A program made the translations under genes and the position numbers. Shown piece after piece: positions 25,114 through 45,930 of a stretch of 64,000 bases of DNA. The number at the start of each line of letters is the position of its first letter. The stretch's first letter is position 1. The DNA is from Chloroflexota bacterium (GTDB taxonomy: Bacteria; Chloroflexota; Limnocylindria; QHBO01). Below the pieces are notes generated by a model that was given only the letters and a program-made list of their open reading frames with translations, did no database searches and was not told the DNA's origin. The stretch spans positions 218,036 through 282,035 of the forward strand of contig JBBDXT010000002.1 of assembly GCA_040902225.1 (NCBI GenBank), read 5' to 3'.

Positions 25114-25205
25114 GAGATGAACCAGGAGAACGACGTGCCGAAACCAGTCCATCTGTCCAATGCCCGTGCCTTGCGACACCGAAACCCCATTTGTTCGATC
25201 ACTTC

Positions 25206-26198
25206 ATGAGCGCGAGCGGCGATCGCAATGAGCCGATAGAACCCACGACCACCTTCCTGCTTGACGATGGAGATGCCACCGCGCAGCCCGGCTGGTGGCA
25301 GCGCCGGTCGCGCCGCGGAAAGGGAGCCACCATCGGTGGCGCAACACTGGTCCTCCTGATCGGAATCGGGAACGTTACGGGCGGCGGGCAGGATGCTCCA
25401 CCACCTACAGACACGCCTTCAACGGCCGCCGTGGCCGAAGCAACCGCAAAGCCGACTCCACGTCCGACCCCCGGGCCAACTGCCATACCTACCCCCGAGC
25501 TCGGCCGCGCGCCCGCTGGCACGACGACCATCGGTCAAGTGGTCGATGTCGTGGACGGCGACACCATCAAGGTCGAGATCAATGGCGGGGTCTTCACGGT
25601 TCGCTACATCGGGATCGACACGCCGGAGACCGTCCACCCAACGGTCCCGGTTGAGTGGATGGGTGCAGAGGCCTCCATGGCGAACACCCTCCTGGTAGAG
25701 GGTCAGGAGGTCTGGCTGGAGAAGGACATCTCCGAGGTCGACCAATACGGCCGCCTTCTACGCTATGTCTGGCTCCAGCAGGGCACCGACTGGCTGCTCG
25801 TCAATTACGAGCTGGTGCGGCTGGGCTTCGCCAACAGCTCTACCTACGCGCCGGACGTCCTGTATCAGGAGCTCTTCCTCGAGGCCGAGGGAGAGGCGCG
25901 AGGGGCCGGCAGCGGCCTGTGGGGCGAGACTCCTACACCAGCTCCCACTCCGCCGCCGACACCGGTGCCTACGGCAGTGCCAGTCGCACCGGCCGTTACA
26001 CCGGCGCCGCCAGCAGCTACCCCCGCGCCCGCTAACTGCCACACGTCGTACCTCGACGCCTGCCTGCTCGTAGGCGTTGAGGACTATGACTGCGCCGGTG
26101 GGTCCGGAAATGGACCGTACTACACCGGTCGCGTGCGGGTGGTTGGACCGGACGAGTACGGCCTCGATGCTGACGGCGACGGCATCGGCTGCGAGTGA
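25206..26198 (+). CDS. Secreted thermonuclease-like protein with excalibur domain
   Basis: 330 aa from the ATG at 25206 (an in-frame TTG lies at 25191). A membrane anchor (ATIGGATLVLLIGIGNVTG) near residue 50 is followed by a Pro/Thr linker, a staphylococcal-nuclease domain (VVDVVDGDTIKVEINGG, RYIGIDTPETVHP, YGRLLRYVWLQQG) with the catalytic Asp/Arg/Glu pattern, a second Pro/Ala linker and a C-terminal excalibur Ca-binding domain (DADGDGIGCE). It should hydrolyse DNA/RNA outside the cell. Flanked by the two promoter/hairpin leaders at 24996 and 26270. Confidence 0.93.
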   Translation: MSASGDRNEPIEPTTTFLLDDGDATAQPGWWQRRSRRGKGATIGGATLVLLIGIGNVTGGGQDAPPPTDTPSTAAVAEATAKPTPRPTPGPTAIPTPELGRAPAGTTTIGQVVDVVDGDTIKVEINGGVFTVRYIGIDTPETVHPTVPVEWMGAEASMANTLLVEGQEVWLEKDISEVDQYGRLLRYVWLQQGTDWLLVNYELVRLGFANSSTYAPDVLYQELFLEAEGEARGAGSGLWGETPTPAPTPPPTPVPTAVPVAPAVTPAPPAATPAPANCHTSYLDACLLVGVEDYDCAGGSGNGPYYTGRVRVVGPDEYGLDADGDGIGCE

Positions 26199-26323: not shown

Positions 26324-26518
26324 ATGCCCACTCCCAGTCGTTCGCGCTCCAGAGGCCTGCTCAGCACCTGGGCCGGCGACTCCCTCGTGCGCCGTTTCTT
26401 GGCCTGGTTGGTGCAAAGCGCGATCCTGCTCGCAGTGGTTGCGATCGGTTTTGCGCTCATCTGGTTCGTCCTAACCCCGGGGATGATTGATGGCATCACC
26501 CAGGTCTTCGCCCGGTGA
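26324..26518 (+). CDS. Small single-span membrane protein, 64 aa
   Basis: MPTPSRSRSRGLLSTW gives a basic N-terminus; WLVQSAILLAVVAIGFALIW is one transmembrane helix; a short tail follows. No family recognised. It directly follows the shared promoter/hairpin leader and lies 66 bp upstream of the nuclease-helicase pair, so it may be its first gene. Confidence 0.6.
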   Translation: MPTPSRSRSRGLLSTWAGDSLVRRFLAWLVQSAILLAVVAIGFALIWFVLTPGMIDGITQVFAR

Positions 26519-26584
26519 CGGAACTCGCCAGCAACGCCGCTTGCCGAACAGGCCACCCAAAGGCCTGCTACAGGGAGGACACCA

Positions 26585-27949
26585 GTGCCCATGTTGCGTG
26601 ATGAGCGATGGCCAGTCGCTCGGCTGATTCCTCTGACGTCCGATACCGGCGTCGAAGCTAAGGAGCGAAATGCCGCATCCGCCCTACTCGCTGTGCTATC
26701 GCACGTGGATGAGTTCGGGCGCAGTCTCCTTAAGCCGCTCGGCGCGCCCGCAGGAAGGATCGAGGCGTTCGTTGAGACGCAGATCAAGGCGGAGAACGGA
26801 AAGACGATCCGGCCGGACGGTTTGATCGGAGTTACGCGCGGCGGCAGAACGTGGTGGGCTCTCGTCGAGTGCAAGATCGGCGCCCAGCCACTAACCACTG
26901 AGCAGATGGAGATGTACCTCGATCTAGCTCGCTTCATCGGCATCGACGCGGTGCTTTCTATCTCGAATCAATTCACGTCGCGATCATCCGACTACCCGAT
27001 CTCGATTGACAAGAAGAAGCTCAAGAAGGTGGCCCTTCATCATTGGTCTTGGGTGCGTGTATTGACCGAAGCCGAGGTCCAGAAGCAATTCCGCGGAGTT
27101 AACGACCCGGATCAGGCCTATCTTCTCGACGAGCTCATCCGCTACCTCTCGGACCCTCGGTCAGGAGTTGTCCAGTTCAACGACATGGGTCCCAGTTGGA
27201 TCCGAGTGAAGGATGGAGCAAGGAATCGGACGTTGCGGAAGACGGATGAGGACGTCGGCACTGTCGCCAACCGGTGGGACGAACTCGTCCGTTTCCTGAC
27301 CCTCCAAATGACCAAGGAGTTGGGGCGCGACGTACGTGAACTGCAGCGCCGAACCGAGACCTCGGCGGCTGCGCGTCATCAGGCCCTTCGCGAGTCGCTG
27401 GCGGACTCGGGCGAGCTCTACGCCGAGCTCAACATCCCCGACACAGCCGGGCCACTCGAGATCATTGCGGACCTCTCGGAACGGCAGATCCGTATCTCGA
27501 CTGAACTGGCTGCTCCAAAGGAAGGCCAATCGCGGGGCCGCATTTCCTGGCTGCTCCGCCAACTCCAGAAGGCTCCCCCCGACCTGACCGTCGAAGCGCG
27601 AGTCTCACGTCTGTCGACGACTTTGATGGCCACTCTCTCCGACTTGCGTGAAGAACCTTCCGCGCTCCTTCCAGACCGAACGCGAGAAATCCGCGGCTTC
27701 CGGCTTACGCTCACTCGTGACCTGGGTATCAATCGCGCGGGTGGTCGGGGATCCTTCATCGAGAGCGTCTTGCTGACCGTCAAGAGTTACTACGGCGATG
27801 TGTTGCAGAAGCTCACGGCCTGGAAGCCCCGTGCGCCGAAACTCCGCACGCGTCCGATAGGGGAAGAGATCGTGGAGGTGCCGCCCGCGATCGCCGAGGG
27901 TCTCGAGGAGGCCGCCGAGCTGGATACGGAGCTCACGGGTCAAACGTGA
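26585..27949 (+). CDS. Predicted PD-(D/E)XK nuclease-like protein, 454 aa
   Basis: GTG start with GGGAGG 8 nt upstream. Residues about 60-100 read VETQIKAENG, RPDG and WWALVECKIG: Glu64, Asp78 and Glu95-x-Lys97 match the PD-(D/E)XK nuclease core. The C-terminal 300 residues are helical, with charged coiled-coil-like stretches (LGRDVRELQRRTETSAAARH) and no recognised domain. It overlaps the next gene by 4 bp (GTGA). Base composition is lower in GC than the neighbouring core genes. Such nuclease-first operons next to helicases are common in antiviral islands (inference). Confidence 0.72.
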   Translation: MPMLRDERWPVARLIPLTSDTGVEAKERNAASALLAVLSHVDEFGRSLLKPLGAPAGRIEAFVETQIKAENGKTIRPDGLIGVTRGGRTWWALVECKIGAQPLTTEQMEMYLDLARFIGIDAVLSISNQFTSRSSDYPISIDKKKLKKVALHHWSWVRVLTEAEVQKQFRGVNDPDQAYLLDELIRYLSDPRSGVVQFNDMGPSWIRVKDGARNRTLRKTDEDVGTVANRWDELVRFLTLQMTKELGRDVRELQRRTETSAAARHQALRESLADSGELYAELNIPDTAGPLEIIADLSERQIRISTELAAPKEGQSRGRISWLLRQLQKAPPDLTVEARVSRLSTTLMATLSDLREEPSALLPDRTREIRGFRLTLTRDLGINRAGGRGSFIESVLLTVKSYYGDVLQKLTAWKPRAPKLRTRPIGEEIVEVPPAIAEGLEEAAELDTELTGQT

Positions 27950-29889
27950 AACTGTACTCGGGGACGTCCGAGCAGTTCATGACGGATGCACGGATGCATC
28001 GAATCGCCGAGAAGCTGCGGGTCGAGTACGTCAGTCAGATCGGTCACAAGCCCGGAGGCGCGGAGTTCGCCTCCTGGCAGAACAGTCTCGGCGCGCTGGC
28101 CATGCTGATAGGCCAAGCGGAGCTGAACGACCATGGAGTGATCCTTGAATACCAGCTCGGCAACACCAGCCGACGTCTGGACGCGATGCTCACCGGCCAT
28201 GCAACCACGAGCGCCGAAAGCGCGGTAATCGTCGAGCTAAAGCAGTGGGGCGATACAGGACCTTCAAACGCGGACGGATGTGTCGAGACCCGGGTCGGAG
28301 GGCGAGTTAGACCGGTCCCCCACCCATCGGTGCAGGTTGGCCACTACGAACAGTGGCTCCTCGACAACCACACCGTCTTTTACGAGGACGGCGTAAATCT
28401 CGCCGGAGTGAGCTACCTCCACAACCTGCTCTTCGACCCTGACGAGGAGCTGTTCGCCCCGAAGCACGCCTCGTACCTGGCCACCAATCCGCTCTTCACT
28501 GGCGACCAGTCAGAAGACCTTGCTGGGTACCTCAACGAGCGCCTGTCCGAGGGCGACGGCATCTCGATCATGGCCAAGGTCCTCGAGTCTCGGTACAAGC
28601 CGAGCAGGAAGCTCCTCGAGCACACCGCCGAAATGGTCGCCGGCCAGCAGGAGTTCATCCTCCTGGACGAGCAATTCGTCGTCTTCGAGTCGGTGCTCAC
28701 CGCCGCGCGACAAGGGTTCCACGACACGCACAAGCGGGTGATCCTGGTCAAGGGCGGACCGGGCACTGGCAAATCAGTGATCGCGCTGCACCTCGTCGGA
28801 CGCTTGGCGAAGGAGGGCTTCAACGCCCAGCACGCTACCGGCAGTAAGGCGTTCACCGAGAACATGCGCCGAGTCGTCGGCTCGCGTGCTCGGGCGCTCT
28901 TCGCCTACTTCAACCAGTTCGGGAACGCAGCTCCGAACGACATCGACGTCTTGATCCTTGACGAGGCGCATCGGCTGCGAAAGACATCGGCGCACCGCTT
29001 CCAGCCAAAAGCACAGCGCACCGATCTAGCTCAGGTGGATGAGCTGGTGCGATCCGCGAAGACATCGGTCTTCTTCATCGACGACCTTCAGGCGGTTCGC
29101 CCCGACGAGGTCGGCAGCACCGACCTCATCAGCGAGACGGCCCACCGCGCCGGTGCCGAGATCCAGGAGTTCGAGCTCGAGACCCAGTTCCGGTGCGCAG
29201 GCTCCAAGGGCTTCGTCACCTGGGTCGACAACACGCTCGGCCTGGACGAGACCGCGAACCCCATCTGGGATGGCAGCGAAGGCTTCGACTTCCAGATCGT
29301 CGACTCGGTCGAGCAGCTGGATGCCATGATCCGATCGAAAGCCGATGAGGGCCACACCGCGCGCCTCGTCGCCGGCTTCTGCTGGCCCTGGTCCGATCCG
29401 CTCGACGACGGCACCCTGGTGCCCGATGTGAAGGTTGGCGCCTGGCAGATGCCGTGGAACGCCAAGTCCGATGCCGGCCGCCTGGCCGACGGCATCCCGC
29501 AGGAGCGCTTCTGGGCATCTGACCCCCGCGGCATCAACCAGGTCGGCTGCATCTACACGGCTCAGGGCTTCGAGTTCGACTACGTCGGCGTCATCTTCGG
29601 CACGGACCTCCGCTGGGATCCCGCCTCCGAATCATGGGTCGCAGATCCTGGCTCATCGCACGACTCGATGGTCAAGCGTGCCAAGGGCGACGAGTTCCTG
29701 GAACTCGTGAAGCGCACCTACCGCGTCCTTCTCACCCGCGGCATGAAGGGCTGCTACGTGTACTTCGAGGATGCGGCGACGCAACAAGGCGTTCAGAGCC
29801 GCTTCGATTTGGGAAGGCTACCAGTCGAAGGCGCGGACGCGGAGCCGCGACGCGACGGGGCACTCGAACCAATCGACGTCAGTGCTTAA
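27946..29889 (+). CDS. DUF2075-type helicase with N-terminal nuclease-like domain
   Basis: 647 aa from a GTG overlapping the previous gene. Residues about 55-100 contain RRLDAML and AVIVELKQW, again a D..ExK nuclease-like core. Around residue 270 VKGGPGTGKSVIALHL is Walker A, and about 335 VLILDEAHRLRK is Walker B; YTAQGFEFDYVGVIFG and VLLTRGMKGCYVYF are helicase motifs V/VI. This is the DUF2075 (Schlafen-group-3-like) helicase architecture. It likely acts with the upstream nuclease on foreign nucleic acid or stalled forks. Ends 15 bp from the convergent lipoprotein gene. Confidence 0.85.
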   Translation: MKLYSGTSEQFMTDARMHRIAEKLRVEYVSQIGHKPGGAEFASWQNSLGALAMLIGQAELNDHGVILEYQLGNTSRRLDAMLTGHATTSAESAVIVELKQWGDTGPSNADGCVETRVGGRVRPVPHPSVQVGHYEQWLLDNHTVFYEDGVNLAGVSYLHNLLFDPDEELFAPKHASYLATNPLFTGDQSEDLAGYLNERLSEGDGISIMAKVLESRYKPSRKLLEHTAEMVAGQQEFILLDEQFVVFESVLTAARQGFHDTHKRVILVKGGPGTGKSVIALHLVGRLAKEGFNAQHATGSKAFTENMRRVVGSRARALFAYFNQFGNAAPNDIDVLILDEAHRLRKTSAHRFQPKAQRTDLAQVDELVRSAKTSVFFIDDLQAVRPDEVGSTDLISETAHRAGAEIQEFELETQFRCAGSKGFVTWVDNTLGLDETANPIWDGSEGFDFQIVDSVEQLDAMIRSKADEGHTARLVAGFCWPWSDPLDDGTLVPDVKVGAWQMPWNAKSDAGRLADGIPQERFWASDPRGINQVGCIYTAQGFEFDYVGVIFGTDLRWDPASESWVADPGSSHDSMVKRAKGDEFLELVKRTYRVLLTRGMKGCYVYFEDAATQQGVQSRFDLGRLPVEGADAEPRRDGALEPIDVSA

Positions 29890-30618: not shown

Positions 30619-30906
30619 ATGATCCGCGACCTCAAGGGCACCATCCAGCGCGAAGGCGCCCAGATTGGGCTGTTCATCACCCTCGAAGAGCCCTCCAAGC
30701 CGATGCTGCTCGAGACCTCCACCGCCGGCGTCTACACCTCACCCGTCTCAGGCAAGGACTACCCGCGCATCCAGATCCTGAGCATCCGCCAGCTGCTCGA
30801 AGAGCACGCTAAGCCGATGCTGCCCCTGCTCCTGATGCCCACCTACCAGCAGGCCGAGCGTATCCCCGCCAAGCAGGCCGCGGAGCAAAGAGAATTCTTG
30901 GGCTAG
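30619..30906 (+). pseudogene. DNA methyltransferase, C-terminal fragment (95 aa frame)
   Basis: MIRDLKGTIQREGAQIGLF, ITLEEPSKPML, GKDYPRIQILSIRQLLEE and the end KQAAEQREFLG form the C-terminus of the same broad class of site-specific DNA methyltransferases whose N-termini are scattered at 4038-8562 and 25045. The frame is intact with its own ATG, GGTGGAG ribosome site and a TTATGCT -10 about 27 nt upstream, so it could be expressed as a small protein. The catalytic part is missing. Followed by 30907-31235, about 330 bp in which no convincing gene is seen. Confidence 0.8.
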
Positions 30907-31235: not shown

Positions 31236-32387
31236 CTACGTAACAGATCGCCAATGAGCGCTCCGGACCGCAGCTTGAACTCCACTTATGGGTGCCTGCG
31301 CACGAAGCGCCTCCTGGACGGCCTGTTGCGCGGCTTGAAGTAGAGCCTGCTGCCCCTGTTGTAGCGCCGCCTGGAGCGCGGGTGGGAGTGTCTGTGGGTC
31401 GATTCCGGGCAACTGGAGATTCAGATTCAGCGACACATTCAACGTTGGCGGCATCTGGCGCTGCGCTCGGACGTTGAACCTTCCGCCGAACTCGCTGCCT
31501 GACTTTGTGGTCTCAAGCGCGGCGATGATGACATCTTCGTCGTAGGTATCGACCGACATCACAGCTGCCTCTGGGTCAATGGGCGATCGCAGCTGGAGAT
31601 GATCCTCGTATTCGTTTAGCAGACCCCACATCAGGACATCAAGGTCATCGGCGGCTTCCTCAACCGGCAGACCGATATCCTTTGCCTCGCGACTGCCGAT
31701 GGCATGACCGTGGGCATACACCCTCTCAGCCAACGTCTCCACGATAGTTGCCATTTCCTGCTCAGTCGGAGGGCTTGCTCGCGCTAACAGCAGTCGCCTG
31801 GCGACGTCGCGAATGTGCGAGTGGGTCCGGTAGGCATTCCCAAGACTGATCGCATCTATTCGCTCAAGGAGTTTCGTGAGGGCTGTCGAGAGGGCAGCCT
31901 GATCGGACAGCTTTCCTCGGTCCTGGACAAACCGGACATATGCCATCACGTCTTCAACATTGACCGTTTCCTGCACAAGCGAACTGCCTCCCCCCGGCAA
32001 TTGGACCATCCGTTGAAGGTTCATGATCGGATCGATTGGGCCGAGTTCCCCTTGACGCCCCATCACGATTTGATCCGCGCCGAGCGCTAGCAACGTACCC
32101 GCACTGTTCGCCCGGAAGGGAATAAGAACCCGCCATTCGTCGGCCGCCTGACGCAGTGCCGTTGCTAGCCGCCACGGGACATCGATTGCTCCTCCCCGGC
32201 TGTAGAGGAACAGGTCCAAGCGTTTGACGTGACCAATCTCGCGCAGCAACTCGTACATCGGCCGAACGGCGTCGTCACCGATCTGCGCCGGAACTGGTTG
32301 GCGATCGCCGGTGACATAGCTAATCACCCGGCTGCCGCGCAGCCGTTCAATTCGTCGTAAGAGCTGCACGCGTTTGGCCCGTGCCAT
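31236..32387 (-). CDS. Serine dehydratase proteinase family protein (ClpP/SppA-like)
   Basis: 383 aa from the ATG at 32387; an in-frame TTG at 32441 is the longer option. Residues 40-120 show LFLYSRGGAIDVPWRLATAL, then IPFRANSAGTLLALGADQIV with the probable nucleophile Ser in NSAG, and GELGPIDP: the crotonase/ClpP-like fold of SDH-type proteases. The C-terminal part adds a Gln/Ala/Leu-rich region (QAALQQGQQALLQAAQQAVQ), perhaps an oligomerisation helix. Usually membrane-independent. Last gene of an operon with hicAB and a DUF6941-like gene, an unusual partner for a protease. Confidence 0.85.
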   Translation of the reverse strand: MARAKRVQLLRRIERLRGSRVISYVTGDRQPVPAQIGDDAVRPMYELLREIGHVKRLDLFLYSRGGAIDVPWRLATALRQAADEWRVLIPFRANSAGTLLALGADQIVMGRQGELGPIDPIMNLQRMVQLPGGGSSLVQETVNVEDVMAYVRFVQDRGKLSDQAALSTALTKLLERIDAISLGNAYRTHSHIRDVARRLLLARASPPTEQEMATIVETLAERVYAHGHAIGSREAKDIGLPVEEAADDLDVLMWGLLNEYEDHLQLRSPIDPEAAVMSVDTYDEDVIIAALETTKSGSEFGGRFNVRAQRQMPPTLNVSLNLNLQLPGIDPQTLPPALQAALQQGQQALLQAAQQAVQEALRAQAPISGVQAAVRSAHWRSVT

Positions 32388-32444
32388 GTCCTTCGACTCC
32401 GAGTCGACCCCGTCGACTCCTCTCCTGGCCAACCCCAACAAGCG

Positions 32445-32864
32445 CTATCCCGGGGAGGACTGCACCTCCGTGCCTAGGATCTGGACCACGAACGGATACT
32501 CCGCCCGTTCCCCTTCGATCTCGACGATAAAGTGGTGAAGCCCGGCCTCCTTAAATGCCAATCCGCTGAGTACGAACTGAAAGTTCAGCTGGAGCGGGAG
32601 GTTCTCAATCATGTTTTCCCTGGACTCCATGGGTGCTGTGTCGTCGATCAGCACCTGAGATCCACTGGGAGTTGCGAGCGAGAGCTTGACGTGCTTCGCT
32701 CCCCTTTCGGCATGGTCCAGCTGCGCCGAGACGAGGACTGTCAATGCGACAGGGAACGGAAGGACTGGAGCGTTGATGACACGGACACCCATCCCAAGAA
32801 CGTTTAACTTGCCGTCATTGCTCTGATTGGCGCTGTCAGCTACGAGCAGATAGGCAATTCTCAT
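32445..32864 (-). CDS. DUF6941-like protein, 139 aa
   Basis: Starts at an ATG overlapping the hicB stop (ATGA). MRIAYLLVADSANQSNDGKL, NVLGMGVRVINAPVLPFPV, and the C-terminal HHFIVEIEGERAEYPFVVQI match the short beta-rich DUF6941 family, whose function is unknown. No signal peptide. Coupled to hicB upstream and 57 bp from the protease start (3 bp from its alternative start). A longer frame reaching to 33254 only mirrors hicB. Confidence 0.7.
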   Translation of the reverse strand: MRIAYLLVADSANQSNDGKLNVLGMGVRVINAPVLPFPVALTVLVSAQLDHAERGAKHVKLSLATPSGSQVLIDDTAPMESRENMIENLPLQLNFQFVLSGLAFKEAGLHHFIVEIEGERAEYPFVVQILGTEVQSSPG

Positions 32865-33415
32865 TGCTTCACCCCGAGCGCCATCGTCGAGTTCTGCATT
32901 ACCTCTTGGTTTCCAAGAACGACTCCCGCGTTCGCCGGCAGGGTTCTCAAGGAGGCACCCACACGCCATTCGGCGCTGTAACCGCCGCCAAACATAATGA
33001 AACGACTCGCTTGCCTCGACTGGAGAAGGCTCCAGGAAAGGCGTGAGGCGATGTCCGCCCCTAGGCGAGCCCCAGTTACTTCCGCAAGGGCGGTCGCGCA
33101 GTAGGAATTGAGGCTCACCCCTTCGCCCGTGGCCTGACCAACGAGCCGAGCGTGAAGACCCTTTGGTAAGCGCAGCACAAATTTGCCGCTGTATTCGCCT
33201 ACGCGGTTGGGCTCCGGAACGTCCTGGCCGCGAGCGTCCGCGGTCGCGATCCACAGGTCAATGACGTTGGGCAGGTCCGCCATGACCTCGTCAATGGATT
33301 CGCCAGTCGCCACACAACCCGGAAGCTGTGGAACGACGGCCGTCCACGTGCCGTCCACCTCGCGACGAACATCGAGGCGATATCCCCTCGTCGGGTCATT
33401 CGTTGTCGTCTTCAT
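32861..33415 (-). CDS. hicB: HicB-family antitoxin with extended C-terminus
   Basis: 184 aa from the ATG at 33415 (other in-frame starts at 33424 and 33436). Residues 10-65 (YRLDVRREVDGTWTAVVPQL, PGCVATGESIDEVMADL) are the HicB RNase-H-like domain; SGKFVLRLPKGLHARLVGQA and LNSYCATALAEV form a ribbon-helix-helix DNA-binding unit. A typical HicB ends there (about 135 aa); this one continues for about 60 residues with a Gly/aromatic segment (FIMFGGGYSAEWRVG) of unknown role. It would neutralise HicA and repress the operon, but the upstream toxin gene is broken. Confidence 0.85.
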   Translation of the reverse strand: MKTTTNDPTRGYRLDVRREVDGTWTAVVPQLPGCVATGESIDEVMADLPNVIDLWIATADARGQDVPEPNRVGEYSGKFVLRLPKGLHARLVGQATGEGVSLNSYCATALAEVTGARLGADIASRLSWSLLQSRQASRFIMFGGGYSAEWRVGASLRTLPANAGVVLGNQEVMQNSTMALGVKQ

Positions 33416-33629
33416 TTTCGTCATCGCCGCACTCATCGATGATCCTCAGCAATTCTGTTAGCTGGCCTATCCGTACGTGCCCCTTCTTGCACGTCATGGT
33501 GATGATCGGGGGGCAGTCGTCCCGGGCATAGGTCTCGTGGCTGCCGGACTCGCGAGCGAGCTCCCACCCAGCATCAGCGAGCAGCCGCCGAACATCTCGT
33601 CACTTCGCGTTGCCTTTGTTCCTCTTCAG
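33396..33629 (-). pseudogene. hicA: hicA toxin gene with in-frame stop
   Basis: The frame LKRNKGNAK-stop-RDVRRLLADAGW, then ELARESGSHETYARDD with the catalytic His of GSHETY, is HicA. Ser of the usual NAKSRDV is TGA (33602-33600), and the initiator position is CTG (33629), not ATG. No start codon exists between the stop and the conserved core. The 3' end overlaps hicB by 20 bp, as in working hicAB loci. The toxin, an mRNA interferase, is therefore probably not made. Confidence 0.8.
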
Positions 33630-41016: not shown

Positions 41017-41211
41017 TCAGCCCTTCTTCGCTACGCGCTTCGGCCGAAGCGGAGCCGCAGTGCGCCTGGCGTCCTCCTCATCGGTCACCTCTCGGAAGTG
41101 GCCCTTGGCGCGGGCGGCGAATCGAACGTAGGGGTTTGGCCGTGCCCGGCTGAAGTCGAATGGCTTCTGGAGGTCAGCCTCTTCCTCGTCGTCGTCGTGG
41201 GTCTGCTTCAT
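41017..41211 (-). CDS. brnA: BrnA-like antitoxin
   Basis: 64 aa from the ATG at 41211. KPFDFSRARPNPYVRFAARA is typical of small antitoxins paired with BrnT; the N-terminus is very acidic (DDDEEE), the C-terminus basic. It overlaps the 3' end of brnT by 38 bp, as expected for a toxin-first brnTA operon. Confidence 0.75.
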   Translation of the reverse strand: MKQTHDDDEEEADLQKPFDFSRARPNPYVRFAARAKGHFREVTDEEDARRTAAPLRPKRVAKKG

Positions 41212-41480
41212 AGCGTCTTCGTTCCTGCGGCGTGGCAGGCCGTGCGGAGATGATCCGAATGTTAGTGCCTCGTTCTGTGAACGCAACGACAACGATGGCT
41301 CCGTGCTGTGTTCTGCCAATCAGCCGCTGCCGCACCTCCGATTGTGAGTGGCGCGCGTCAAACGTGATGACAGCGCGATGGTCCGCGAAGGCCGAAGACG
41401 CGGACTCGAAGGTCACCCCATGTCTTGCAAGGTTGCGCCTGTTCTTTGTGGGATCCCATTGGTATTCAGGGGGAACTCAT
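41174..41480 (-). pseudogene. brnT: BrnT-family toxin gene, frameshifted
   Basis: After a frameshift the sequence reads EYQWDPTKNRRNLARHGVTF, ESASSAFADHRAV, and TNIRIISARPATPQERRRYE, a complete BrnT RNase fold. The ATG at 41480 opens as MSSP and reaches TGA after a run of five C (41473-41469 on the plus strand as G); removing one C would join MSSP to the BrnT frame. It is therefore disrupted at a homopolymer, either by mutation, phase variation or a sequencing error. An internal GTG gives only a truncated product. Confidence 0.75.
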
Positions 41481-41568: not shown

Positions 41569-44500
41569 TCAGCTACACCCGCTCGTCGAGCCGCAGTTGA
41601 GGCACTTGTAACAGCTCCCGTTGCGGACCATGATCGAGCCGCAGTCCGAGCAGGAGGGGCTGTCCGCGGTATCGAAGATCACCGTCGGCTGCCCCTTCTC
41701 CAGTCGCTCCTCCCGACCCGCCGCATGCCCATTACTGGCCACAACCTTCAACCCGTCCAGGATGCCAGGCACTGAATCCGGTGCTGCCTGACTCGCTTCA
41801 GTGGTGGAAGAGCCAGACGTCGTCGCCTCATCCGTCGCCAAAGCATCCTGCCCCGAAGCCTCAACTGAGCTAGGGGAGGCGGTGTCGGACGCCGCGCCCG
41901 AGGCTGTCGCGAAGCCAGCCGAGGGTGTGGTGTCCGGCGCCGCATCAGCTGTCACAGCTGGTGCATCAGAGAGAGTCATCTGCCGATTGATGATCCCGAC
42001 CACATCCTGCTCATCCCTGCTCAGGAACTTGGTCGCCAGATACCTGAACACGTAGTCGATGAGTGACTTCGCCATCGGGATATCCCGGTTGGTCGTGAAC
42101 CCCGCCGGCTCGAAGCGCAGGTGGCTGAACTTGTTGACCAGGTCCTTCAGCGGCACGCCGTACTGGAGCGCCACGCTGACCGCGGTGGCGAAGGCGTCCA
42201 TCAGCCCGGAGATGGTCGACCCCTCCTTGGCCATCTTCAGGAAGATCTCGCCCGGCTGGCCGTCCTCGTACAGGCCGACCGTCAGGTAGCCCTCGTGCCC
42301 CGCCACGTTGAACTTGTGGGTGAAGGCAGCCCGCTCGTCCGGCAGCCGGCGCCGATACGGCTTGGGCGCTTCCGGGACCGATGCCACGGCACCGGCTTCG
42401 ACCGCGTCCCCGCCCTCCTTCTTCGTGTTCAGCGGCTGCGACCGCTTCGAGTTGTCGCGGTAGACCGCGATCGCCTTGAGGCCCAGCTTCCAGCCGTCGA
42501 TGTAGACCTGCGCGATCTCCTCGGCCGTCGAAGCCTCCGGCATGTTGACCGTCTTGCTGATCGCCCCGCTGATGAACGGCTGCACCGCGGCCATCATCTT
42601 GAGGTGGCCGTTGTAGTGGATCGACCGGTTGCCGTTGGCCGGCTTGAAGGCGCAGTCGAAGACCGACAGGTGCTCGTCCTTCAGGTGCGGCGCGCCCTCG
42701 ATCGTCTCGTGCTCGTCGATGTAGGCGACGATCTCCTCGGTCTGGCGGGCGTCGTAGCCCAGCTCGCGCAGGGCGTGCGGCACCGTCTGGTTGACGATCT
42801 TCAGGTAGCCGCCGCCGACCAGCCTCTTGTACTTGACCAGGGCGATATCAGGCTCGACGCCGGTCGTGTCGCAGTCCATCAGGAAGGCGATGGTGTTGTG
42901 GCTCACGAAGCCGTTGGCCACGTAGGTCACGTTGGCCGGCACGCTGATGTCGTAGGTCAGCTGCTCCTCGCCCAACTCGGCTGAGGCGATCTCGTCGTAG
43001 AAGTAGCCGAGCGTCTGCTCGAGCTCCGCATCCTCGATGCGCTCCGCCAGGGCGGTGGCCGACCGACGGGTGACCAGGCCGGTCCGTGACAGCGACAGCA
43101 GCATCGTCTTGCGCAGGTGATCGTTATCCGGCGCCAGCCGGTCGATCAGGCCGCGGTCCAGCGGGACCAGGTCGCCCTTGGCAGTCTGTGGATGGTCACC
43201 TGTGGTGGCCGCCAGCGCATCGGTCTTGCGCGCCGAGATGAAGCCGATCTCGTCCAGGAACCGGCCGGCAGTGTTTGCGTTGAGCAGTCGCAGGTAGTGG
43301 ATCGGGTTGGGACCCTTGTGCCCAGCGCCCGGCTGATCGGTCTTGCGGGTAGTCACGAAGCCTAGCGCCAGCAGCAGCGACTGGACGTCGTAGCTGAACT
43401 GCTCGGAGACGGTCGCCCAGTAGGCGTAGCCATGGTTGGTGTTGCCATCGGCCTCGTACAGTCCCCGCACGAAGGCGCGGTAGACGGCCGGGTCGTTGGA
43501 GTACAGAACCGCGTCCGGGATGTGGCTCTCGTAGCCCTTGCCGCGATGCTCGCTGTGCGGTGCGCGCTTGGCGAACCCGCACGCCTCCCACCACAGGGTC
43601 AGGCGGACCGAATGGAAGGCAACCTCGGTGTAGCCCTCGCGGTCTGCGACAGCCGCCTCCAGTCCGAACAGGCTGCGGCCCAAGCTGACCAGGCGCTCGA
43701 CGACATCAGTGTCGGAGGCGGTAACGCAGAAGCGCAGGCCCTTGGTATGCAGGGAGCCGTCGCCCATGAAGTAGCCGAGCACCTCGGCCAGGTCCGCGCT
43801 CATGTAGCGCGGCACGAAGGTGGTGTGGTCGGAGGTCCAGTAGGCCTCCGCCAGCGGCGGCAGCGCCACCTCGCGCGGCTCGCCGATCATGCCTCCGAGC
43901 ATCAGCGGCACCCGGTCGCCGGACCGAACGTCCGCGAACCGCCGCCACTGCCAGTTGCCGTTCCCGTCCACCACCTTGATGCGGTGGGTCGGCGTGCCCT
44001 GGATCCGATAGCCGCGGTTGGTCTTGATCGTGACCGCCGGCTCGGCGCCGTTCACGAAGAACTTCGTCGCCGGTCGCGGCCCGTCGTCGGTCGCCACCTT
44101 GGCGTCGAGGTCCTGCCAATGCGCGCCATCAGGGTTGCCGAGGCTGCGGAGGCGGACCAGGCCGCGATCGGTCAGGACCAGGGAGTTGCCAGTCAGGCAG
44201 CCGGTGGGGGCCAGCACGCTCATCTGGGAGTTGCGGTAACCCGCTTGCTCGCCCAACGCCACAGCGTCGTCCCAGGCGGTGAGGACAGTGTCCATCAGGT
44301 CAACTGGCACACGCTGGCGGTCGATCCGGTAGGCTGCCTCGCGGTGCATGCCCATGACCTTGAGGTAGGGCTCCCGGTTCGGGGCATAGCCATTGAATGG
44401 GCCACCCTGGTCGCGAGCGATGCGTGCGGACTGAAGGGCGGATTCTGCCTGCATGAGCGCCGTTATCGCTGCCGCGTAGGTTGTGCCTTCATCCGAGTCG

Positions 44501-45930
44501 TAGGCCAGACCGCGGTTCATGAGCAGCGCGCCCAGGTTGGCGTAGCCGATCCCGATGGGCCGGAAGTCGTGCGAGTTCTTCTCGATCTTCGGCGTCGGGT
44601 ACGAGGCGTTGCTGACCAGAATCTCCTGGGCCGTGAAGACGATCCTCACCGCGTGCCTGAAGTCCTCGATCGCAAATTCGCCGTCATCGGTCAGGAACTT
44701 CATCAGATTCAAACTCGCGAGGTTACAAGCTGAATCGTCGATATGCTGGTACTCACCGCATGGATTTGTAGCGTGGATCGTGTGGGTGTTTGAAACAGGG
44801 CTCCAGAGGTTGGCCGTGTCGTGGTACTGGATCCCGGGGTCGCCGCAGACCCAGGCCGCCTCGGCCATCTTGTTGAGGAGGGATCGGGCCTTGAAGGTAT
44901 CCATCGGCTTACCGGTCGTCACCGCGTGGGTGGTCCACTCGCCGTCCTTCTCGACCGCCTCCATGAACTCGTCGGTGACCCGCACGGAGTTGTTGGAGTT
45001 CTGGAAGAAGACCGATTCGTACGCCTCGCCACCGTTGAAGTTGCCGTCATAGCCGGCGTCGATGAGGGCCCAGGCCTTCTTCTCTTCCTTCATCTTGCAG
45101 TCGATGAACTCCTCGATATCGGGGTGCCCGATGTTGAGGATCACCATCTTTGCGGCTCTTCGGGTCTTGCCGCCGGACTTGATCACGCCGGCGAAGGCGT
45201 CGAAGCCCTTCATGAAGGAGACCGGGCCGGAGGCGGAGCCGCCGCCCTTGAGCCCCTCCGTCTTGGAGCGGATGGTGGAGAGGTTGGATCCCGTGCCGGA
45301 GCCGAACTTGAAGAGCATCCCCTCGGTGTGGGCCAGGGTCAGGATGCTGTCCATGGTGTCGTCGACCGAGTTGATGAAGCAGGCGGAGCACTGCGGGTGC
45401 TCGTCGATCCCCACGTTGAACCAGACCGGCGAGTTGAAGGCGGCGCGCTGCTTGAGCAGGATGTCGGTCAGCTCGGCGTGGAAGGTTGCTCCGTCCTCCG
45501 GGGTGGCGAAGTAGGCGTCCTTCTGACCCCAGCCGGTGATGGTGTCCACGACGCGGCCGATCATCTGGCGCACGCTGTGCTCGCGCTCCGGCGTGCCGAG
45601 GTGGCCGCGGAAGTATTTGGATGCGGTCACCTGGGTCGCGAGCTGCGACCAGGACTTGGGGAAGTCCAGGTTCTTCTGCTCGAAGACGGTCTTGCCGTGC
45701 TCGTTGGTGATGACCGCCTCGCGCGTCTCCCACTCGACCGTGTCATACGGATCGACGCCTGTGCGGGTGAATCGGCGCTCGATGCTGAGGCCCTTCCAGG
45801 TCTTCCGCTCACCCGGCTTCAGCTGGCGGTAGCCTGTCTGCTTTGCCCCCGTTCCGTGCCCATTCGTGCTGCGGCCGTTGCCGTCGGTGTGCTTGACCGC
45901 GGGCTCTGAGGGGGTGGCGGAGCGTGGCAT
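41569..45930 (-). CDS. nrdJ: Adenosylcobalamin-dependent ribonucleotide reductase with intein
   Basis: 1453 aa precursor; 435 aa are an intein (42895-44199), leaving a 1018-aa enzyme of normal class II size. AAGGA precedes the ATG. Hallmarks: FNSPVWFNVGIDEHPQCSAC, NPCGEYQHIDDSACNLASLN around the radical-site cysteine, the APTG-TIAF substrate-binding loop (split by the intein), and a C-terminal zinc-ribbon/redox tail with CSDCG and CYKCLNC. It reduces ribonucleotides to deoxyribonucleotides with a cobalamin-generated thiyl radical, independent of oxygen. Regulation by NrdR is suggested by upstream boxes. Its last 47 codons are repeated at 33811-34002. Confidence 0.96.
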   Translation of the reverse strand: MPRSATPSEPAVKHTDGNGRSTNGHGTGAKQTGYRQLKPGERKTWKGLSIERRFTRTGVDPYDTVEWETREAVITNEHGKTVFEQKNLDFPKSWSQLATQVTASKYFRGHLGTPEREHSVRQMIGRVVDTITGWGQKDAYFATPEDGATFHAELTDILLKQRAAFNSPVWFNVGIDEHPQCSACFINSVDDTMDSILTLAHTEGMLFKFGSGTGSNLSTIRSKTEGLKGGGSASGPVSFMKGFDAFAGVIKSGGKTRRAAKMVILNIGHPDIEEFIDCKMKEEKKAWALIDAGYDGNFNGGEAYESVFFQNSNNSVRVTDEFMEAVEKDGEWTTHAVTTGKPMDTFKARSLLNKMAEAAWVCGDPGIQYHDTANLWSPVSNTHTIHATNPCGEYQHIDDSACNLASLNLMKFLTDDGEFAIEDFRHAVRIVFTAQEILVSNASYPTPKIEKNSHDFRPIGIGYANLGALLMNRGLAYDSDEGTTYAAAITALMQAESALQSARIARDQGGPFNGYAPNREPYLKVMGMHREAAYRIDRQRVPVDLMDTVLTAWDDAVALGEQAGYRNSQMSVLAPTGCLTGNSLVLTDRGLVRLRSLGNPDGAHWQDLDAKVATDDGPRPATKFFVNGAEPAVTIKTNRGYRIQGTPTHRIKVVDGNGNWQWRRFADVRSGDRVPLMLGGMIGEPREVALPPLAEAYWTSDHTTFVPRYMSADLAEVLGYFMGDGSLHTKGLRFCVTASDTDVVERLVSLGRSLFGLEAAVADREGYTEVAFHSVRLTLWWEACGFAKRAPHSEHRGKGYESHIPDAVLYSNDPAVYRAFVRGLYEADGNTNHGYAYWATVSEQFSYDVQSLLLALGFVTTRKTDQPGAGHKGPNPIHYLRLLNANTAGRFLDEIGFISARKTDALAATTGDHPQTAKGDLVPLDRGLIDRLAPDNDHLRKTMLLSLSRTGLVTRRSATALAERIEDAELEQTLGYFYDEIASAELGEEQLTYDISVPANVTYVANGFVSHNTIAFLMDCDTTGVEPDIALVKYKRLVGGGYLKIVNQTVPHALRELGYDARQTEEIVAYIDEHETIEGAPHLKDEHLSVFDCAFKPANGNRSIHYNGHLKMMAAVQPFISGAISKTVNMPEASTAEEIAQVYIDGWKLGLKAIAVYRDNSKRSQPLNTKKEGGDAVEAGAVASVPEAPKPYRRRLPDERAAFTHKFNVAGHEGYLTVGLYEDGQPGEIFLKMAKEGSTISGLMDAFATAVSVALQYGVPLKDLVNKFSHLRFEPAGFTTNRDIPMAKSLIDYVFRYLATKFLSRDEQDVVGIINRQMTLSDAPAVTADAAPDTTPSAGFATASGAASDTASPSSVEASGQDALATDEATTSGSSTTEASQAAPDSVPGILDGLKVVASNGHAAGREERLEKGQPTVIFDTADSPSCSDCGSIMVRNGSCYKCLNCGSTSGCS
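42895..44199 (-). other. Intein with LAGLIDADG-type endonuclease inside nrdJ
   Basis: Residues 578-1012. It begins with Cys (CLTGNSLVLTDRG, block A), has GTPTHRIKVV (block B His), two dodecapeptide motifs LGYFMGDGS and GLYEADGN with the catalytic Asp residues, and ends YDISVPANVTYVANG, FVSHN; the next extein residue is Thr. Insertion is between G and T of APTG-TIAF, a classic ribonucleotide-reductase intein site. All splicing residues and both endonuclease aspartates are visible, so splicing and homing should be functional. Confidence 0.93.

Follow-up and report, generated by a model that had tools for sequence, protein, structure and literature searches.

We analysed a 64,000-nucleotide stretch (the window) of contig JBBDXT010000002.1 from a Chloroflexota bacterium with a 2.28 Mb genome, in which two overlapping genes encode a protein of 454 amino acids (aa) and another of 647 aa, each carrying a nuclease-like core. 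The reading that we favour, with a probability of roughly 0.55, is that two independently evolving nuclease modules have come to share one acquired island and are now co-translated via a 4-base overlap, the 647-aa protein being a defence nuclease-helicase. A preliminary description of this DNA had listed three open reading frames (ORFs), the last two overlapping, and direct reading of the sequence confirms this layout:

26324..26518, + strand: ORF of 64 aa, predicted to contain a single transmembrane stretch; a doubtful gene
26573..26578, + strand: likely ribosome-binding site GGGAGG ahead of the 454-aa gene, from direct sequence reading
26585..27949, + strand: gene of the 454-aa PD-(D/E)XK nuclease, whose family has no name, from homologs, AlphaFold2 and Foldseek
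27946..27949, + strand: GTGA, the 4-base overlap joining the stop of the 454-aa gene to the start of the 647-aa gene, from direct sequence reading
27946..29889, + strand: gene of the 647-aa nuclease-helicase, from PF09848, alignments, AlphaFold2 and Foldseek

The 454-aa gene starts at either GTG 26585 or ATG 26591, and both long genes score strongly in a codon-usage gene caller trained on homologs. The GTGA overlap is expected to couple their translation.

Profile searches found no Pfam, NCBIfam or PADLOC model for the family of the 454-aa protein (hereafter the 454 family). Residues E64, P77, D78, E95, K97 and Q107 are invariant across 48–52 homologs, which upholds the D78/E95/K97 nuclease core proposed at the outset. 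The AlphaFold2 model (predicted local distance difference test score, pLDDT, 92; predicted template modelling score, pTM, 0.85) comprises a nuclease domain (residues ~1–200), an alpha/beta domain (~205–415) and a C-terminal tail; the C-terminal part had been described as helical, and the model corrects this. The best PDB matches of the model in Foldseek are restriction nucleases, with EcoT38I first (E = 4.6e-4, probability 1.00), and further matches include PaqCI, MspJI, Can2, FokI and BamHI as well as viral PD-(D/E)XK proteins. The TM-scores are low (0.2 overall) because the match is confined to the catalytic core. As modelled, the 454-aa protein belongs to the PD-(D/E)XK superfamily and has a restriction-endonuclease-like fold. 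Although it has this catalytic fold in common with EcoT38I, MspJI and PaqCI, its second domain is unmatched and, in a further departure from restriction endonucleases, no cognate methyltransferase lies beside its gene, except for a fragment.

The 647-aa protein matches PF09848 over residues 263–609 (E = 2e-88; 297.5 bits against a curated cut-off of 24) and covers the Pfam model completely (positions 1–354 of 354). PF09848 is the Schlafen group 3 (SLFN-g3) DNA/RNA helicase domain, formerly DUF2075 (COG3410). The superfamily 1 (SF1) motor is intact: Walker A (GGPGTGKS, 270–277), DEAH (339–342), Q382, Q540-G541 and R598 are invariant or nearly so in an alignment with 15–17 relatives. The N-terminal RxD..ExK domain is likewise conserved (R77/D79, E97/K99, HP126–127, Q130 and Y134), and all of these residues apart from the HP pair are invariant or nearly so in 15 relatives. 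The AlphaFold2 model has a pLDDT of 83 and retrieves RecD, RecD2, Dda, SLFN11, SLFN14 and Dna2 in Foldseek. The initial assignment of this protein as a nuclease-like core joined to a full helicase with Walker A and B motifs is thereby substantiated. Sequence homology between its nuclease domain and that of the 454-aa protein is undetectable.

The arrangement of an N-terminal nuclease and a C-terminal SLFN-g3 helicase parallels that of the vertebrate group III Schlafens SLFN11 and SLFN14. The vertebrate proteins differ, however, in having a Schlafen core/AlbA_2 domain, for which the 647-aa protein gives no Pfam match, in place of a PD-(D/E)XK-type ExK motif. Residues 235–417 resemble Nhi and AbiO in PADLOC (E ~1e-10), but only ~150 of 470 profile positions are matched and PF09848 is far stronger, so that membership in either system is not indicated on present evidence. 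The PADLOC candidate PDC-S41, similar in total length (657), is matched weakly (E = 4e-15, 53 bits) in three short scattered stretches. With PF09848 matched in full and PADLOC matches that are partial only, the 647-aa protein belongs to a known family but to no named defence system.

The block containing these genes looks horizontally acquired, because the G + C content at third codon positions (GC3) drops to 0.65–0.82 for genes at 25.2–33.4 kb, compared to 0.80–0.89 in the flanks, and because the 454-aa and 647-aa genes are both missing from the three congeneric genomes compared. The flanking genes tested have only distant matches within the genus.

The conserved pairing on which a two-gene defence module would depend was not recovered: in almost every genome compared, one family is present and the other absent, and among these genomes no adjacent pair in one operon was found beyond the window, apart from a remnant. 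The remnant, of a helicase C-terminus (68% over 91 residues), lies ~0.5 kb downstream of the closest 454 relative (L026, 73%). Of 50 actinobacterial genomes with a 454 gene, 14 contain PF09848 genes, 16 in total, and the other 36 have none at E ≤ 1e-15. Four of these 16 helicases are located 2.3–15 kb from a 454 gene, where 0.11 would be expected by chance (nominal P ~4e-6, or ~2e-4 with two Knoellia counted once, for a distance threshold of ~15 kb that was set after inspection of the data), and a S. glaucescens plasmid carries both families ~7 kb apart. Gene order, strand, spacing and intervening genes vary in every co-localised case, and a helicase relative as close as 71% (L023) has no 454 gene in its company. 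A genuine two-component system, in which the 454-aa protein and the nuclease-helicase act jointly, one nicking or sensing and the other translocating and degrading, with the overlap setting their stoichiometry, would agree with the 4-base overlap, the L026 remnant and the excess of co-localised genes, but it is hard to square with the varying arrangements, the lack of another adjacent pair and the many genomes in which one family stands without the other, and we hold it to be unlikely. Island sharing, perhaps with occasional cooperation, rather than a conserved operon, is a fair conclusion from these comparisons.

The 454 family is encoded at no fewer than 253 loci in a genome scan, mostly in Actinomycetota; viral and phage searches returned no relative, and the papers searched contain no description of it. 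In Actinomycetota, the gene has no recurrent neighbour beyond genus-level synteny, its 62 immediate neighbours match just nine PADLOC families, once each, and the family tree tracks host families. Homologs also reside on 11 Actinomycetota plasmids (tblastn), where the annotated ones are all called TerD family proteins. All five plasmid homologs tested have an N-terminal TerD domain (Pfam). In the TerD-fused proteins of Rhodococcus and Streptomyces plasmids, homology to the 454-aa protein extends over its entire length and occupies the C-terminal ~420 residues (36–41%). This fusion, the link to the Ter stress-response system, is seen in the plasmid homologs only, and Pfam finds no TerD domain in the 454-aa protein. 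In Ter systems, TerD is viewed as a ligand sensor that responds to nucleotide-like signals (PMC7824862, PMC7159879). An anti-phage system that depends on TerD and includes a McrBC-like component has also been described (PMC3710099). The fused relatives therefore suggest that a signal, possibly a stress or nucleotide-derived one, can control members of the 454 family, although the version in the window is without TerD.

Outside Actinomycetota, in the window's branch of the family, the surroundings are mixed. A complete type I restriction–modification (RM) system adjoins the 454 gene in L019; EVE/AAA McrB-like and DUF2357-PDDEXK_7 McrC-like genes precede the 454 gene, itself interrupted, in L020; and a HamB-like helicase is near that of L026, whereas L021, L022 and L028 show no defence-type neighbours. 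A role of the 454-aa nuclease in defence is possible. The two long genes could also be independent defence or stress genes that happen to be clustered, with an incidental overlap and a 454-aa protein engaged in a non-defence process such as DNA repair or Ter-type stress. The standalone actinobacterial genes, whose tree follows host families, and the plasmid TerD fusions agree with such an explanation, but it leaves unaccounted for the RM, McrBC or Hachiman-like genes beside several non-actinobacterial members and the absence of the 454 gene from the congeneric genomes, a pattern typical of accessory genes; we regard it as improbable. As a separate observation, positions 2764–5375 of L026 encode an ExK protein of 206 aa, which matched no family, followed by the HamB-like helicase; the former is possibly a divergent Hachiman HamA.

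The helicase family has a different distribution. A substantial PF09848 match is present in ~7 of 201 Chloroflexota genomes; relatives are carried on plasmids and phage-like contigs, and viral and phage searches returned few. Bacterial, archaeal and plasmid relatives have the same layout of N-terminal ExK nuclease and SF1 helicase, and in some (L079, L160–L164) the nuclease domain is swapped for one that, read by eye, is GIY-YIG-like. In L023, the nearest relative, the helicase gene and that of a MORC-like HATPase overlap, and a DNA methyltransferase lies alongside. Relatives on plasmids adjoin (i) a type III-like RM system and a second DUF2075 gene, (ii) ABC-three-component (ABC-3C) and RM genes with a pyrophosphohydrolase, (iii) Druantia DruA, (iv) CRISPR I-E or, in others, (v) DUF3883; an archaeal relative adjoins a pyrophosphohydrolase gene, and Z1 together with a Dcm-type methyltransferase is found beside still others. 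In the 14 actinobacterial genomes, which were picked solely for carrying the 454 family, the 52 immediate neighbours of the helicase genes match 39 PADLOC families at 1e-10, including Wadjet-type JetA/JetB, PD-Lambda-1 and HNH nucleases. These counts describe a trend and are not a test, because a count of families is not one of members and some PADLOC models are generic.

A regular neighbour is a MazG-like pyrophosphohydrolase gene, situated within 1 kb of the helicase gene and often overlapping it in 10 of 14 actinobacterial loci (L141–L144, L155 and L160–L164), and also adjoining the helicase in Priestia and the archaeon Halalkalicoccus (plasmids L139 and L150). The helicases concerned bear N-termini of the PD-(D/E)XK type or, by eye, of the GIY-YIG type. 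The MazG-like gene is a recurrent partner of SLFN-g3 nuclease-helicases, frequent but not universal, and in the window the helicase gene is overlapped by a PD-(D/E)XK gene instead. The papers searched offered nothing on DUF2075 in defence; bacterial Schlafens in defence are the topic of a preprint, as far as its citation in PMC12839542 tells. It is very probable that the 647-aa helicase serves in defence. That it is instead a repair or housekeeping SF1 nuclease-helicase of the RecD2/Dna2 kind, as the structural matches to RecD, RecD2 and Dna2 could imply, is highly implausible given the patchy occurrence of the family, its lack in the three other congeners, its carriage on plasmids and phage-like contigs, the swapped nuclease domain and the varied defence neighbours. 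Paired SLFN-g3 helicase genes, tandem or tail to tail, were observed in L157, L159 and L137, and Wadjet-type JetA/JetB adjoin both the L157 pair and the single helicase gene of L158. A candidate MazG gene at 40 kb in the window was rejected, as the match (E = 0.09) sits inside another ORF.

Combining these findings, we return to the favoured reading of two separately evolving nuclease modules in one acquired island. The RecD/Dda-like SF1 motor of the 647-aa protein would probably load on or translocate along foreign nucleic acid, either DNA or RNA, which its N-terminal PD-(D/E)XK-type domain would cut. The 454-aa protein would be a PD-(D/E)XK DNA endonuclease recruited from a separate family and co-translated with the helicase, and its second domain would probably handle the recognition of a target or a partner. 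What we infer is the substrate, the cutting, a function against phages and whatever the two proteins do jointly in this host. Several points weigh against this reading: (i) the usual partner is missing, since no MazG-like gene is near the helicase in the window; (ii) the 454 genes of Actinomycetota are chromosomal, for the most part inherited vertically, and without defence neighbours, and because the family lacks such a neighbourhood and follows host families there, its function may be housekeeping, as a nuclease for stress or repair; and (iii) the above-chance co-localisation and the L026 remnant leave room for real cooperation. Of the defence module originally put forward, two credible nucleases, an alien island and a defence context for the helicase stand, but a conserved module does not. 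Defence genes lie beside the helicase family in many genomes and beside the 454 family in several Chloroflexota, but not beside the latter in Actinomycetota. A bolder and rather doubtful proposal is that the 454 family represents an unrecognised class of PD-(D/E)XK effector nucleases that have an alpha/beta domain of their own for sensing or recognition and, in some lineages, TerD-type control, and that its member here, recruited to an SLFN-g3 nuclease-helicase, would form with it a dual-nuclease Schlafen-like anti-phage system.

The 647-aa helicase is a member of a known family, widespread yet patchy, while the well-conserved 454 family is uncharacterised. Two outcomes are of most use: the recognition of the latter as a conserved PD-(D/E)XK family, unmodelled in the three databases and linked to TerD by fusion, and the recurrent MazG–SLFN-g3 association. 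The pair itself is of lesser weight because it is not conserved. Because the SLFN-g3 nuclease-helicases of bacteria and archaea are found in defence islands, where a MazG-like gene recurs as their partner, the ancestry of Schlafen helicases and their anti-viral role become testable in simple hosts.

The preliminary description had also placed the genes in an island with a thermonuclease, toxin–antitoxin remnants, a protease operon and methyltransferase fragments, and counterparts of these were found by Pfam and homology:

25191..26198, + strand: thermonuclease (SNase), secreted or lipoprotein-like, with an Excalibur-like end (PF00565, E = 3.7e-17)
30619..30906, + strand: downstream gene fragment for the C-terminal part of a DNA methyltransferase, 37–44% to plasmid DNA methyltransferases
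31236..33436, - strand: convergent genes downstream, part of the surroundings, for a ClpP-like SDH protease, a DUF6941 protein and a HicB antitoxin (Pfam)

The thermonuclease, upstream on the same strand, belongs to the surroundings and is no demonstrated part of the system. The methyltransferase fragment is what remains of an RM gene. The HicB antitoxin-like gene occupies 32861–33436, and no HicA partner was identified there. The 64-aa ORF, once considered a membrane component of the module, was rejected as such because neither 22 genomes from the order nor the compared loci yielded a homolog. Its codon score is marginal (10.6, with the best support from 26387 onward), its Pfam matches are all sub-threshold, and it is probably outside the system. 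Further along the window, a class II ribonucleotide reductase gene (41569–45930) is split by an intein that contains a LAGLIDADG domain, and two small overlapping ORFs on the minus strand (41017–41416) resemble, by eye, a BrnT/BrnA toxin–antitoxin pair.

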